Shown: piece by piece, positions 1 to 6,652 of the stretch
Layout: the number at the start of each line of letters is the position of its first letter
How positions within the stretch are numbered: position 1 is the stretch's first letter
Notes under the pieces: model-generated
What the model saw: the letters and a program-made list of their open reading frames with translations, nothing else
What the model was told of the DNA's origin: nothing
Database searches by the model: none
Position numbers and translations under genes: made by a program
From: Bacteriovoracales bacterium
GTDB lineage: Bacteria > Bdellovibrionota > Bacteriovoracia > Bacteriovoracales > Bacteriovoracaceae
NCBI GenBank assembly: GCA_007117175.1
Contig: SKGZ01000282.1
Location: 1 to 10,415, forward strand
Reading direction: 5' to 3'
DNA length: 10,415 nt

Positions 1-680
1 GGTTGGGAAGGGCCAAGTTGCAAGAGATCATTAATCACTAAAACTTGTCCGTCGGTCCCTCGGCCGGAGCCGATACCAATAGTGGGAATAGAGAGGTTTT
101 GGCTGATTTCTTTGGCTAAGTTTTCCTCCACGCACTCTAAGACCAAGGCAAAGACACCCGCATTTTGAAGTGCTTGAGCACTCTTGATAAGTTCTTGAGC
201 TTGCTCTTCATTTTTACCATGGGTGTAATATCCTCCCAGTTGATGAACAGATTGAGGTTGCAAGCCAATATGTCCCATAATAGGAACGCCATTTTGAATT
301 AAGCGTTCAATCAGCTCTAATAAGTAGGGACTGCTGCCCTCTAATTTAAGAGCCTCCACTGAAGTTTTCTGAAAAAGTTCAATGGCGTTTTGCAGACCTT
401 TTTCAAAACTAGCATAAGTGCCAAAGGGAAGATCAGCGATGACAAATTTATCGCTAGCACCTCTTTTGACTGCCGCTGAAAAAGTGATCATCTCGTTCAG
501 GCTGACTGGAATGGTATTGGGATAACCCAGCATGACATTTCCTAGACTGTCTCCTACTAAAATGAGGTCCAGTTCCGTTTCATTAAGTATTTGAGCTGTT
601 TGAAAGTCATAGCAAGTAAGCATCTCAATGCTTCTTTGATTTTTAAGTTTTTGGATAGTTCTGACATTAAGTTTTTTCAT
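1..680 (-). CDS. panB: 3-methyl-2-oxobutanoate hydroxymethyltransferase (ketopantoate hydroxymethyltransferase), 3' end missing
   Basis: PanB transfers a hydroxymethyl group from 5,10-methylene-tetrahydrofolate to 2-ketoisovalerate to give ketopantoate, the first committed step of pantothenate and CoA synthesis in the cytoplasm. The visible 226 residues cover most of the usual ~265. They show the family signatures in order: TCYD (22-25), VGDSLG (42-47, Mg ligand Asp44), ADLPFG (82-87, Asp83), KLEG (112-115, Lys112 and Glu114), GHIGLQPQ (136-143) and LECV (181-184, with Glu182 matching E. coli Glu181), then IGIGSG and the TDGQ motif. All expected active-site residues are present. The ATG at 680 lies inside the stop codon of the upstream KARI-like gene (ATGA, 677-680) and has no clear Shine-Dalgarno site, so translation is probably coupled. 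The gene leaves the window at base 1, with about 40 C-terminal residues unseen. Confidence 0.97.
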   Translation of the reverse strand, partial: MKKLNVRTIQKLKNQRSIEMLTCYDFQTAQILNETELDLILVGDSLGNVMLGYPNTIPVSLNEMITFSAAVKRGASDKFVIADLPFGTYASFEKGLQNAIELFQKTSVEALKLEGSSPYLLELIERLIQNGVPIMGHIGLQPQSVHQLGGYYTHGKNEEQAQELIKSAQALQNAGVFALVLECVEENLAKEISQNLSIPTIGIGSGRGTDGQVLVINDLLQLGPSQ

Positions 681-1606
681 GATTGGGACTCATTCATTTG
701 TTGATACATCTTTTGTAAAGGACTTTGTTGCCAATATTCTTCTACTTGATTCTGAATCTCTTTAAAAGACATTTTTTGAATTTTTTGATCAAAGCTTCCA
801 TCTTTAATTTCACGGTGCAGCTCTTCCATTAATTTCTCAGTCTCTTGCTTATTGTACTTTTGATTGTATTGCTGTGAGCCCATTAAAGCATTGGGACTAA
901 TCATTTTGAAAAATTCTTTTGGTCCTTTGGCCTTTAAAACATCGGCGATCAAGAAAAATTCGTGCCATGTCTCTAAATAGGCTAAGTGGTTGGGAATACC
1001 TTTTTGAATAAGAAAATTATAGTTTTGTTCAATCAGAGTGGGCAGTGCTCCACAAAGTAAACTTTGTTCAGAAAAAAGATCGCAGCAAGTTTCTTCTTCA
1101 AAGCTGACTGGGTAGGGATTTTGGATTCCAATGGCAGCAGCTAACTCTTTCAAAAAACTTTCTGATTGTTTGGGATTTTGACTGTGCTCAGTGGAGAAGA
1201 CTGCTTGGATATTTTGTTGATTGAGATAATCTTTCCTCATAGCACTGGCAATTGACTTAGGGGCAAGCAGTAGGTGCTCAAATTGATTAAATTTTTGATC
1301 AAGTTTAAGTGTGTGAACAGAGTGGCCATGGGCGTAGATGATTTTAGCTGCTTTTGGCAGGTGGTCTTGGTGCTTGTTTAGAAACTCAAGGTGATTTTGG
1401 TCGGGAATGAGCAGAGCAAAATTTTGATACTGGGCCAATTGGCTGGCCTTAACAGTGCTGAGTCCCTGTTGAACTGGAAAATTTGCCTTATGACTGCCGG
1501 CTCGCAAGTAGATTTTGCAGGGGTAGTGAGAGTCGCGCAAATTACAGGCCCAACTTTGAGCTTGATTTCCCCAACCAACAATAATTAATGTTTTGTCTTC
1601 TTTCAT
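677..1606 (-). CDS. Divergent ketol-acid reductoisomerase (IlvC) homologue; likely ketopantoate reductase
   Basis: This 309-residue protein has the length and layout of a class I KARI: an N-terminal Rossmann domain and one helical knotted domain. The dinucleotide loop is GWGNQAQ (11-17), where the third Gly of typical KARI is Ala16, followed by NLRDS and an LRAGS loop that would suit NADPH. Typical KARI residues retained are Asp69 (IPDQ), His93 (AHGH), Lys117 (APK), the metal ligands Asp176 and Glu180 in EEETCCDLFSEQ, Glu212 and Glu216 (ETWHE), and Ser237. The usual GPG after APK is lost (SIA here), and the C-terminal end is diverged. KARI normally makes dihydroxy acids for valine and isoleucine. 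Known KARIs, such as IlvC of E. coli and Corynebacterium, also reduce ketopantoate to pantoate. Being first in a translationally coupled pair with panB, it is best read as the step after PanB; that role is inference. The start codon has only a weak GGA site before it. Confidence 0.87.
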   Translation of the reverse strand: MKEDKTLIIVGWGNQAQSWACNLRDSHYPCKIYLRAGSHKANFPVQQGLSTVKASQLAQYQNFALLIPDQNHLEFLNKHQDHLPKAAKIIYAHGHSVHTLKLDQKFNQFEHLLLAPKSIASAMRKDYLNQQNIQAVFSTEHSQNPKQSESFLKELAAAIGIQNPYPVSFEEETCCDLFSEQSLLCGALPTLIEQNYNFLIQKGIPNHLAYLETWHEFFLIADVLKAKGPKEFFKMISPNALMGSQQYNQKYNKQETEKLMEELHREIKDGSFDQKIQKMSFKEIQNQVEEYWQQSPLQKMYQQMNESQS

Positions 1607-1751: not shown

Positions 1752-2783
1752 GTGGAAAATATTTTTAGATTTATTGATTTTCACAGCACTCATTTTCTAG
1801 TGATTGGCGCCAGTAGCTTATTTTTCATTGGTTTGGCCTTCATTGCTCTGTGGGTTTATAACCGCCAAAAATTTCAAAATCTCAAGCACCAAATTCCGGC
1901 CAGCGTTGTTCATAGTTATTTAGACTCCATTATTCAAAATTCAACGGCACTTAAGTCCAATCTTTTTAGAGGGCTAGCTGGAGAAGCTCCAGTGGATATT
2001 ATCAGCCCTAAAGTTGTTCCGACCAGTCAGTTGGTGGGAGGAGAAGTTAAGCAGGGTGGAGTTTCAGTAGAAGAGCTCAATCAAAAAAATGCTCATATTG
2101 CCACACTCAAGAGCCAATTAGCAGATAAGACTCAGGTGATTAGTGACCTAGAGGCTAAAATTGAAGAGTTGTTGAGTCAACAACAGACTCAACAGCAGGC
2201 GCTAGCTTCAACTACTGAAGTAGATTCCCAGCAAACCGCAGCACTGACTGCACAGCTCAGTCAAGTGACTCAAGAACGTGATGAGTATAAAGCAAGACTG
2301 GATGAGTATAGTATTATTGAGGACGACTTGGCCCAACTCAAAAGATTGCAAGAAGAAAATGAGCATTTAAAAAGATCGCTACAAGCAGGATCTGCGCCAA
2401 TGCCGGTTGCTGAGGAAGAAACGGCCATTGACGAGGAACCAGTTGCTGAAAGTGATTCTGTGGAAGAGGTCGCCACATCTGCTCATGATGAAGATGGCGC
2501 TGAGGAAGTGATCGATGAAATTGTTGCAGCAGTTGAGGAGAATGAACAGCAAGAGCAGCAGCAAGAGCAGCCAGTGGCAATGGAAGCTCAAACTCCTGAT
2601 CCATTAGCGGAAATGGATGAGACTCAAGGTCATGATGGTTCAGAAGATGAATTACCAGAAAATGACAATGTAATAGAGATGCAGTCGGCTAGAGAAGAGC
2701 AAAACAATCAACAATCAGCCAAAGCTGAAAATCCAGAACAATTAGAGGATTTACTTTCAGAGTTTGAAAAAATGCTCGGCTAG
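1752..2783 (+). CDS. Membrane-anchored coiled-coil protein with long acidic tail, function unknown
   Basis: I do not recognise a family. The 343 residues start at GTG, supported by the GGAGGGG site. Residues about 14-36 form one hydrophobic segment followed by a basic stretch (NRQK), suggesting a single helix with the bulk of the protein in the cytoplasm. Residues about 48-104 are a linker of mixed composition. Residues about 105-210 have heptad-like spacing rich in Leu, Glu, Gln and Lys, as in a coiled coil. Residues about 219-326 are dominated by Glu, Asp and Gln and look disordered. The last 16 residues (328-343) are again amphipathic, with ordered-looking Leu, Phe and Met spacing, like a short docking helix. 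It heads a two-gene unit with the exported HEAT protein 14 bases downstream. A scaffold or polar tether would fit, but nothing in the sequence proves it. Confidence 0.88.
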   Translation: MENIFRFIDFHSTHFLVIGASSLFFIGLAFIALWVYNRQKFQNLKHQIPASVVHSYLDSIIQNSTALKSNLFRGLAGEAPVDIISPKVVPTSQLVGGEVKQGGVSVEELNQKNAHIATLKSQLADKTQVISDLEAKIEELLSQQQTQQQALASTTEVDSQQTAALTAQLSQVTQERDEYKARLDEYSIIEDDLAQLKRLQEENEHLKRSLQAGSAPMPVAEEETAIDEEPVAESDSVEEVATSAHDEDGAEEVIDEIVAAVEENEQQEQQQEQPVAMEAQTPDPLAEMDETQGHDGSEDELPENDNVIEMQSAREEQNNQQSAKAENPEQLEDLLSEFEKMLG

Positions 2784-4108: not shown

Positions 4109-5116
4109 ATGGATTATTTATCACTCTTTCAAGATGTTCTTTCTCAAGAAGCGCAGGCCATTGATCTGGCTAAAAAGAGGGTGACTCAACAGCAGATAGA
4201 TAAAATGATAGCCCTATACGATCGTCTCATCCTAAGTGGAGGAGATCTTTATATTTGTGGTGTTGGAAAGTCAGGGCTCATTGCTGATAAAATTGCTGCC
4301 ACCTTCTCTTCACTAGGGTTGCCTTCTTATTTTTTGCATCCCACTGAAGCCTTGCATGGAGATCTAGGTAGAATTAACTCCCATGACGCTATGATCTTTA
4401 TTAGTAAATCAGGTAGTACTGAAGAGATTTTAAAATTAATGCCTTATCTTCCCATCACTAAGGAAAACTGGATAGCGCTGGTAGGAAATGTTAAAAGTGA
4501 AATTGCTCAAAAGTGTTCAATTCTTTTAGATGCCAGTGTGGAGAAAGAAGCGTGCTTGAATAATTTAGCACCCACCACCAGTTCAACTCTTGCTCTGGCC
4601 ATTGGTGATGCGATGGGAGTAGTTTTTGAAAAATACCGGGGTGTTTCTAGTGATAAGTTTGCTAAAAATCATCCAGCAGGCTTGCTTGGAAAAACTTTGA
4701 ATTTAAAGGTCGAGAGCTTACTTGTTCCCATGGAACAGGTGGGACAGGTTCAACCATCTGAAAACTTAGCACAAGCAATCTTGCAGATGACAAGATATCC
4801 CACGGGAATTTGCTGTGTGGTTAATCTCAATCAGGAGTTACTGGGAATTATTGTGGAGGGAGACATCAGGCGTGCTTTAGGTCAAGATGAGTCAGCTTTG
4901 CAAAAATCAGTTGACCTTTTGATGAACGCGAATCCAATTGTATTGAAAAAAACTGATTTGGCTTTCGATGCATTAAGGATCATGGAATCTGGCCAGAGAT
5001 TGATTTCAGTCGCTCCTGTTTTAGAAGGAAAAAAACTCTTAGGAGTCATTCGCTTGCACGATTTACTTAAAGAGGGATTTTCTGTTCGTGTAGCTGGCAA
5101 TCAAGAGGATAAGTAA
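4109..5116 (+). CDS. kdsD: D-arabinose 5-phosphate isomerase (SIS domain plus two CBS domains)
   Basis: The enzyme interconverts D-ribulose 5-phosphate and D-arabinose 5-phosphate, the first step toward Kdo of LPS, in the cytoplasm. The 335 residues match the usual ~328. The SIS domain (about 35-200) has GVGKSGLIADK (51-61), HPTEALHGDLG (77-87), SKSGSTEE (99-106), the LAPTTSST loop (153-160) and FAKNHPAG (184-191). The four residues corresponding to the E. coli catalytic set are present: Lys54, Glu106, Glu147 and His188. Two CBS domains follow: about 201-260, with the VEGDIRRAL motif, and about 268-325, ending in the HDLL motif. The start has a close AGAAGAG site (4098-4104). The paralogue GutQ has the same architecture, so kdsD is the general reading. 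The last 54 bases overlap the 3' end of lnt on the other strand. Confidence 0.96.
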   Translation: MDYLSLFQDVLSQEAQAIDLAKKRVTQQQIDKMIALYDRLILSGGDLYICGVGKSGLIADKIAATFSSLGLPSYFLHPTEALHGDLGRINSHDAMIFISKSGSTEEILKLMPYLPITKENWIALVGNVKSEIAQKCSILLDASVEKEACLNNLAPTTSSTLALAIGDAMGVVFEKYRGVSSDKFAKNHPAGLLGKTLNLKVESLLVPMEQVGQVQPSENLAQAILQMTRYPTGICCVVNLNQELLGIIVEGDIRRALGQDESALQKSVDLLMNANPIVLKKTDLAFDALRIMESGQRLISVAPVLEGKKLLGVIRLHDLLKEGFSVRVAGNQEDK

Positions 5117-6652
5117 ATTCATAATTAAGAAAATCCAATCACCGTAAAGCTGATAAAGACTAGGTTGATGGTCAAAAAGTGGTAAGGAAAAGTCTAGATT
5201 TTCTTGAGAGTTTATTTCTGTGTATTTTAAAATTTCTCCATAACGGTTAATGATTGCACTTATCCCCGTATTGGTAGCCCGAACGATTGGCATTGAAAAC
5301 TCTAAGGCACGCCAGCGAGCCAGAAAAAGGTGTTGGTAAGGTTCAGCAGTTTTTCCATACCATGAGTCATTAGTTAGGTTGGTGATAAATTGTGGCCATT
5401 GACCATATTGATCATAGCTTGCATTAAGGTAGTTTCTTAAGTAATGGGGCTTGAGAATTTCATAGCAGATGGGAGTAATAGTTCTAAACTGATTTTTGAT
5501 TAAAAAGCTATTTTGATGAGCTCCCTGAGCAAAAAGAGAAACACCTGGAAAATATTTTCTAAGCTGAGGGTTAAAGCGTCCGAAAGGAAGTGTCTCTCCA
5601 AACATTAAGAGGATGTTTTTATGATAGACATCTAAAAATCCTTCTTTGGGATCAAAGTGAAAAACGGAATTATACTCTGTGGTGAGATTATTTCTTGATT
5701 TTTGTAATTGGCCTGTGTCATAGCCTCCAGTTAACAATTGAGCTTGATGAAATTGTATAATTTCTTGCATCAGTAGAGGCACTTGTTGTTTTGCAGTGGA
5801 TAATTGATCAGTATTAAGATTATAGGGATAAGCTGTCTCAGGCCAAATGATTAGATCAATTTTATGATCAGACTCTTTTTGACTCAGTTTTAGGTAGCGT
5901 TCTGAGACTTCTTGTAGAGATTCTATACTTCCGAGTTCCGATTGAATCTTGAGAAAATTTCCAATATTGGCCTGGACTATTCTTAGGTTTAAGTTTTGTG
6001 TTGGTTGCAGATCCTTTGACTGAAATAATGGCAAAAGGCTTATGGAGATCAGAGCAGTTATTGCCAGTAATTGTTTTTGTAAATGAAAGCGAAAGTGAAA
6101 CTTGGCAAAAAACAAGGCGATAGCCCAATAGAGAATAAAGCTATAAAAGAGACTACCTATCATACTTGAAAATGTTAATAATTGCCCTAGCGGTAGTAAG
6201 CTTTGTCCTAATGGAACAGGAAAAATCTGCGGAGTGTAGTGATCAAGCCAAGTTAAGATTGAACTGTATAAGATAATCCTAAAAGAGAGAGGCAGTGAGT
6301 AGCGATTAAGCCATCTTATGATCAATAAGGATAAATAAAGTTGTGGGCGAACAATCAAGGCAAATATAAAGAGTGCGACAAAAGACCAAAAGCTATGTAG
6401 CCCTGCAAAAACCTGAAGTGTGTAATTTAGCCAATAAAATCCAGCAAAAGTATGTCCTAGATTAAAAAGATAGATAAGCAAAAGACTTCTTTTATATTCA
6501 TGAAAAGAACGACTCAAAAGAAGAACTAATCCAATCAGTCCCAAAGGAGCAAAAGGAAAGAAACCTTGAAATAAGAAATTAGGATAGCCTAAGGTAAAAA
6601 TAACTCCAGCCAGAAACGACATCAATAAGCTAAGAAGAAAAGAATCTCTCAT
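5063..6652 (-). CDS. lnt: Apolipoprotein N-acyltransferase
   Basis: Lnt adds the third acyl chain to the N-terminal cysteine of lipoproteins at the periplasmic face of the inner membrane. The 529 residues (E. coli 512) hold a bundle of hydrophobic helices in residues 1-210, then a nitrilase-fold catalytic domain (about 222-490) and a final membrane helix (about 503-520). The triad is visible: Glu272 in the IIWPETAYP motif, Lys345 in YHKNILLMFGE, and Cys396 in TPICYE. The NLTNDSWYG (425-433) and RATNTGISA (458-466) signatures are also intact. The gene follows the subtilase stop by 18 bases. The only Shine-Dalgarno-like bases (AAGAAG) abut the ATG and an in-frame TAA lies just upstream, so initiation may depend on coupling. 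The last 17 codons plus stop overlap kdsD; they include the end of the last helix and a basic tail, so the overlap is probably genuine. Confidence 0.97.
   Translation of the reverse strand: MRDSFLLSLLMSFLAGVIFTLGYPNFLFQGFFPFAPLGLIGLVLLLSRSFHEYKRSLLLIYLFNLGHTFAGFYWLNYTLQVFAGLHSFWSFVALFIFALIVRPQLYLSLLIIRWLNRYSLPLSFRIILYSSILTWLDHYTPQIFPVPLGQSLLPLGQLLTFSSMIGSLFYSFILYWAIALFFAKFHFRFHLQKQLLAITALISISLLPLFQSKDLQPTQNLNLRIVQANIGNFLKIQSELGSIESLQEVSERYLKLSQKESDHKIDLIIWPETAYPYNLNTDQLSTAKQQVPLLMQEIIQFHQAQLLTGGYDTGQLQKSRNNLTTEYNSVFHFDPKEGFLDVYHKNILLMFGETLPFGRFNPQLRKYFPGVSLFAQGAHQNSFLIKNQFRTITPICYEILKPHYLRNYLNASYDQYGQWPQFITNLTNDSWYGKTAEPYQHLFLARWRALEFSMPIVRATNTGISAIINRYGEILKYTEINSQENLDFSLPLFDHQPSLYQLYGDWIFLIMNLLILLIASYTNRKSLFK

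Follow-up and report, generated by a model that had tools for sequence, protein, structure and literature searches.

A KARI-family protein encoded with panB as a proposed ketopantoate reductase in a Bacteriovoracales bacterium and its relatives

The conversion of ketopantoate to pantoate is usually carried out by PanE or PanG, and dual-function KARIs (IlvC) acting as ketopantoate reductases are already known from several bacteria. Such use is reported for the IlvC enzymes of Corynebacterium glutamicum, Buchnera and Bacillus subtilis (PMC4353338, PMC4306246, PMC11487621). An Escherichia coli ilvC panE double mutant is rescued by Buchnera ilvC but scarcely by the E. coli gene (PMC4306246), a panE defect in Salmonella is suppressed when expression of ilvC is raised (PMC5965847), and a B. 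subtilis strain mutated in panE, panG and ilvC is impaired unless pantothenate is supplied (PMC11487621). The ketopantoate reductase homologues FTT1388 of Francisella and EF1861 of Enterococcus correspond to a DUF2520 protein (PMC4572677), here called PanG; B. subtilis YkpB, also renamed PanG, is distinct from it and is grouped with the orthologues of PanE (PMC11487621). PanE/ApbA and KARI belong to one wide superfamily (PMC4353338). Recruitment of the KARI fold outside amino acid synthesis is further illustrated by BurG (PDB 7pce and others), judging from the structure titles.

Here, we describe a KARI-like protein encoded directly upstream of panB in a Bacteriovoracales bacterium (assembly GCA_007117175.1, contig SKGZ01000282.1). 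It is very probably an IlvC-family enzyme that has turned into a dedicated ketopantoate reductase, an activity that we infer from comparative data. The proposal resembles the IlvC cases above in using a KARI for this reaction. Dual-function IlvC has a second role in the synthesis of branched-chain amino acids, whereas the present clade is encoded in a coenzyme A operon and the branched-chain pathway is missing from most of its genomes. Likewise, it differs from IlvC proper (EC 1.1.1.86, class I) in being encoded with panB in genomes mostly lacking ilvB and ilvD. The same reaction is proposed as for PanE/ApbA and for PanG, which takes the same slot before panB in sister genomes but carries an unrelated C-terminal domain (PF10728) that the window protein does not have. 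BurG, in contrast, acts in a cyclopropanol-ring pathway and shares 22% identity with the window protein. A literature search that covered few subscription papers returned neither a panB-linked, dedicated KARI clade in a coenzyme A operon nor an account of pantoate synthesis in this bacterial group.

A KARI-like gene overlapping panB

The window, meaning the whole stretch of 10,415 nucleotides analyzed, contains an open reading frame with an ATG start at 677–1606 on the minus strand that encodes the 309-residue KARI-like protein. It is followed by panB, encoding ketopantoate hydroxymethyltransferase, at 3–680 (minus strand); the 226-residue product scored 267 bits against TIGR00222 (cut-off 207.55), with its 3′ part lost at the contig end. 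Stop and start codons overlap in an ATGA at 677–680 (minus strand), a candidate site of translational coupling. The initial annotation had described an IlvC-family homologue of this length overlapping panB by ATGA, and this description held: the reading frame is real, the overlap spans four bases and both KARI domains lie far above their gathering cut-offs (KARI_N, 71.9 versus 20.6 bits; KARI_C, 92.7 versus 29.1 bits). No RNA element was matched at the operon in an Rfam search. A strong promoter for the gene pair was considered and rejected, the best promoter-like site being on the opposite strand and serving the gene at 1752.

That gene (1752–2783, plus strand) encodes a member of a conserved family of unknown function without a Pfam match, the start of which resembles a membrane anchor and which contains a conserved segment, IPASVV..YLDSIIQNSTALKS; this neighborhood is common to 72 examined loci. 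Elsewhere in the window, a SIS-CBS sugar-phosphate isomerase gene (4109–5116, plus strand) and an Lnt-like gene (5063–6652, minus strand) overlap by 54 bases at their 3′ ends (5063–5116).

Fold, conserved residues and phylogeny of the panB-linked clade

In structural alignments, the class I KARI fold spans the whole chain of the window protein at ~21–25% identity to class I KARIs. Against the NCBIfam ilvC equivalog model TIGR00465, the protein scored 147.1 bits, below the cut-off of 226.15, as did three other clade members (185.5, 188.1 and 175.4 bits). TIGR00745/ApbA domains were absent among its family matches at E values up to 0.001, PF10728 was not matched in the Pfam search and comparison to the PDB found no close sequence relation to PanE.

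Residue conservation was assessed in a clade set of 258 rows (213 distinct) combining loci and database proteins, some of which share one genome. The window protein retains H93, K117, D176, E180, E212, E216 and S237, all invariant in 28 aligned relatives. The metal ligands form two pairs, D176 and E180 in the D-L-F-S-E stretch of codons 176–180 (1067–1081, minus strand) and E212 and E216 in the E-T-W-H-E stretch of codons 212–216 (959–973, minus strand). Retention of the metal and acid residues, pointed out earlier for this protein, extends across the clade: 256 of 258 rows contain every residue of an eight-residue signature comprising these seven positions and E172. The remaining two represent a single genome, G028, fetched twice; its protein carries D176N and E216N and its gene still precedes panB.

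Other positions have changed in a consistent manner. At codons 117–120 (1247–1258, minus strand), the window protein has K-S-I-A on the substrate side in place of the canonical K-G/S-P-G loop. The proline, present in 119 of 120 canonical KARIs, is missing from all 258 clade rows, residue 119 being Ile in 256 and Thr in two; residue 120 is mostly Ala and residue 121 mostly Ser. Residue 179 is mostly Ser rather than the canonical Gly, and 95% of the clade has Leu at residue 241, the Glu of S-x-T-A-E-Y-G. In the nucleotide loop, the third Gly of the canonical set is replaced by Ala in the window protein and in 88% of the 213 distinct rows. Moreover, clade proteins begin at the Rossmann strand and lack the N-terminal stretch of canonical rows. 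The loss of GPG after APK and of the third nucleotide-loop Gly, both noted in the initial annotation, was thus recovered here. Its description of the substrate loop as drifting captured a genuine change, but one other than decay, as the loop has taken on a new motif, K-[AS]-I-A-S, that the clade conserves.

For phylogenetic analysis, a KARI tree of 80 rows was computed that sampled 35 of the 63 clade genomes, 10 of the 120 canonical rows and five of 80 named loci; its bootstrap had not fully settled, and one row (L258) forms a long branch. The 35 clade rows lie on one side of a branch with 100/99 support, and together with panB-type KARIs of the same phylum (G093, G100, L106 and L110) they form one side of a branch supported at 99/98. 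All panB-linked rows fall on that side. The G100 gene ends near a contig edge in a genome in which panB was not found, and we presume it to be panB linked because its sister G093 is. A separate group of 14 (100/100) holds the canonical KARIs and the KARIs of ilvD-containing genomes, all 14 with the loop proline and the metal ligands. The proline is missing from all 35 rows of the panB clade.

KARIs located away from panB (orphans) occur in other families of the phylum, including in genomes without ilvD. Among 24 orphan rows, 17 lack the proline and six have lost a metal ligand position. Some, for example those of G088, G115 and G125, retain the P-G loop and all ligands; loop loss is therefore no general orphan mark. 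On the KARI tree, metal-ligand loss requires at least four changes, and the combination of a D-to-N change with loss of E216 recurs in G028, G087/G121 and G095/G109. In the KARIs of L195, L201, L202, L232 and L259, from genomes without ilvD, the bridging ligand has changed from Asp to Asn and the last ligand from Glu to Gly, Lys or Asn, with this pair altered in separate branches of the tree. We see about an even chance that Bdellovibrionota as a group replaced PanE by KARIs freed from amino acid synthesis, that the panB clade is reductase only and that G028, G087/G121 and G095/G109 separately lost D176/E216 to become metal-independent or one-metal ketopantoate reductases, a series that would separate the KARI half-reactions. 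Two genomes, G031 and G019, encode second, distant KARIs with altered metal sites (L203:4944–5954 and L204:4884–5960, both plus strand). Each adjoins a gene of one shared cluster, in G019 a D-2-hydroxyacid dehydrogenase gene; by analogy to BurG, these KARIs perhaps belong to specialized metabolism.

Operon linkage and phyletic pattern

Linkage to panB is widespread. In 74 of 80 named loci, panB directly follows the KARI gene on the same strand at a spacing of −71 to 63 bases, which is exactly −4 in 35 of the 74; the unlinked loci are three clade members located elsewhere (L061, L074 and L077) and three KARIs of other phyla (L107–L109). Among 143 related genomes, the window's own included, 61 have a KARI gene immediately before panB. 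All 30 best-scoring KARI loci are also panB linked, a sample that overlaps with the 61 genomes and partly with the named loci. Within the window's family, three genomes (G019, G025 and G062) have the clade protein away from panB. Downstream of panB, most loci of sufficient length encode a type III pantothenate kinase, CoaBC and PanC, as identified on one representative per cluster. A divergent class IV aminotransferase that occurs near many KARI–panB loci was also considered as a branched-chain enzyme beside the gene pair and rejected: its representative (L003) best matched aminodeoxychorismate lyase, below cut-off, and it was therefore not counted as a ketoisovalerate source.

Two variants of this arrangement were observed. 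In G001 (L182:4992–5830), a KARI-type panB persists while the KARI gene is gone from its slot, leaving 48 bases between panB and a divergent gene; panC is nevertheless present. Either recent loss or another reductase would account for this. In G093 and G100, which belong to another family, the panB-type KARI (L212:4956–6077 and L225:109–1230, both minus strand) is fused to an N-terminal, MerR-like DNA-binding domain (PF13411, 36.8 bits for L212). The fused gene precedes panB in G093, and its product could possibly regulate its own operon.

The window's genome is 85% complete and its contig ends inside panB. A profile search found one KARI in it. The search for alternative reductases and for the branched-chain pathway that the initial annotation had proposed yielded, in this 85% complete genome, no PanE (TIGR00745, or PF08546 at E values up to 1), DUF2520, ilvB, ilvD or second KARI. 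A hidden PanE was rejected since the TIGR00745 and PF08546 searches were both empty. There was also no panC match at this completeness; with the contig stopping within panB and part of the genome missing, the genes after panB probably exist but were not assembled. The sole class IV aminotransferase found in the genome was nearest to branched-chain models, below their cut-offs.

Across the 143 genomes, 90 contain KARI, 120 contain panB and 86 contain both. By contrast, profile searches that matched 14 of 14 control genomes detected ilvD in only five genomes and ilvB over cut-off in four. Only four of the 90 KARI-containing genomes have ilvD (G008, G037, G053 and G107), and among the 100 genomes that are at least 90% complete, KARI is present in 62 and ilvD in one. 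Counting any match to the ilvB model gives 94 of 143 genomes, 90 of them below cut-off with scores of up to 420 bits; we presume these sub-cut-off matches to be other thiamine-diphosphate enzymes, a weak point in the case against an ordinary IlvC. PanE (TIGR00745) was over cut-off in five genomes and close to it in two more, with 13 of 14 controls matched and eight of these over cut-off. Some TIGR00745 match occurred in 75 of 143 genomes, most of the sub-cut-off ones spanning the N-terminal Rossmann part only. A second KARI match in G141 contained stop codons and was excluded. Of the 61 genomes with a panB-linked KARI, 57 lack ilvD, a PanE hit at or near cut-off and PanG. The exceptions are G014, G039 and G073, with a PanE-model match over cut-off, and G008, which has a complete-looking ilv set including a separate, canonical ilvC in the ilv cluster in addition to the panB-linked gene.

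PanG shows a reciprocal distribution. DUF2520 (PF10728) was detected in 26 of the 143 genomes, over cut-off in all except G083, and its gene lies directly upstream of panB, in the slot of KARI, in 25 of the 26 (exception, G105). KARI and DUF2520 occur together only in G037, where the KARI is canonical and sits beside ilvB and ilvD. In total, 112 of the 120 panB-containing genomes have KARI or PanG (G122 being scored as PanG by BLAST cluster only). The other eight comprise G112 with PanE over cut-off, G124 with PanE close to cut-off and six (G001, G071, G085, G102, G129 and G131) in which the KARI, PanG and PanE models recognized no ketopantoate reductase. The initial annotation had proposed a test of whether the clade co-occurs with panB in genomes lacking panE, and within the window's family of 85 genomes the clade followed panB: the clade protein is present in 63 of 65 panB-containing genomes without PanG, in none of ten with PanG and in none of ten without panB, although Fisher tests on such co-occurrence treat genomes as independent despite their kinship and the movement of panB types in blocks. 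The two family genomes with panB and neither reductase, G001 and G071, are 75% and 68% complete. Even a single genus can be mixed; g43 includes G077 with KARI, G042 and G084 with PanG and G066 without panB. A quick panB tree of 66 rows separated the KARI and PanG types imperfectly, with G105 (PanG located elsewhere), G112 and G131 on the KARI side, and showed that the operon types largely travel as blocks. The KARI/PanG swap is thus an exchange of whole operon types, each carrying its own reductase.

Proposed function, alternatives and meaning

Co-occurrence, tree and genome searches favor the earlier proposal of a KARI recruited to the pantothenate pathway, with ketopantoate reduction as its predicted activity. 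Several observations weigh against it: G001 and G071 have panB but neither reductase, G014, G039 and G073 combine a linked KARI with a PanE-model match, G008 has its ilv set, the clade protein of G019, G025 and G062 is encoded away from panB, and panC was not matched in the window's genome. In the pathway that we envisage, external valine would be taken up and transaminated to 2-ketoisovalerate, PanB would hydroxymethylate this to ketopantoate and the KARI-like enzyme would reduce ketopantoate to pantoate with NAD(P)H. PanC, CoaX and CoaBC, next in the operon of relatives, would then complete the route from pantoate to coenzyme A. Of the two half-reactions of KARI, this scheme calls for the reduction only, so that the loop by the catalytic lysine and some second-shell residues could settle into an altered, conserved state, with the metal and acid residues largely retained. 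Fold, family, operon linkage, phyletic pattern and loop change are observed; the substrate, the cofactor, the absence of isomerization and valine as starting compound are predictions.

Among the alternatives, we consider it unlikely that the protein acts on some other 2-oxo acid connected with the operon, such as 2-ketoisovalerate or a later coenzyme A intermediate, with ketopantoate being reduced by an unrecognized enzyme. The weak Rossmann-protein matches to the PanE model in 75 of 143 genomes would offer candidates for the latter, and BurG, a relative whose solved structure has this fold, is an example of the family being put to different chemistry. No further reductase gap in the pantothenate route is known to us, however, which counts against this reading. 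KARI and its relatives are described as promiscuous (PMC4353338), but in KARI-less genomes the slot is filled by PanG, a described ketopantoate reductase (DUF2520 correspondence in PMC4572677).

We consider it very unlikely that the protein is a standard IlvC still engaged in valine and isoleucine synthesis, which happens to be encoded next to panB and perhaps moonlights as in C. glutamicum. A full-length KARI fold and metal and acid residues in 256 of 258 clade rows are what such an enzyme would show, and moonlighting is documented (PMC4306246, PMC4353338, PMC11487621). Against it stand the sub-cut-off TIGR00465 score, the changed loop, ilvB over cut-off in four of 143 genomes and the canonical ilvC that G008 keeps in its ilv cluster beside the panB-linked copy. 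Without dihydroxyacid dehydratase (ilvD), the product of a true KARI would lead nowhere; with ilvD in four of 90 KARI-containing genomes and neither ilvB nor ilvD found in the window's 85% complete genome, we rejected this candidate. That the protein has no catalytic role and serves as a partner or regulator of PanB or coenzyme A synthesis might be read from the two metal ligands lost in panB-linked G028 and the MerR-like fusions in G093 and G100, but is highly improbable given that 256 of 258 clade rows retain the catalytic residues and that the reductase slot is shared with PanG.

A dedicated ketopantoate reductase of KARI origin would fill a missing step of coenzyme A synthesis in a large, mostly uncultured bacterial group. 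In these relatives of predatory bacteria, the synthesis of valine and isoleucine seems to be lost, while one enzyme of that pathway seems to have been retained and adapted to vitamin B5 production. Their KARI genes are routinely annotated as branched-chain enzymes, and several database records name them as such while ilvD is rarely found, so that metabolic reconstructions would wrongly infer valine and isoleucine synthesis. KARI itself is studied as a herbicide and drug target. The panB-linked clade would represent a natural experiment on this enzyme, in which apparently only the reductase half is needed and loop and metal sites have changed in step, and to which the direct swap of KARI and PanG in one operon slot adds.
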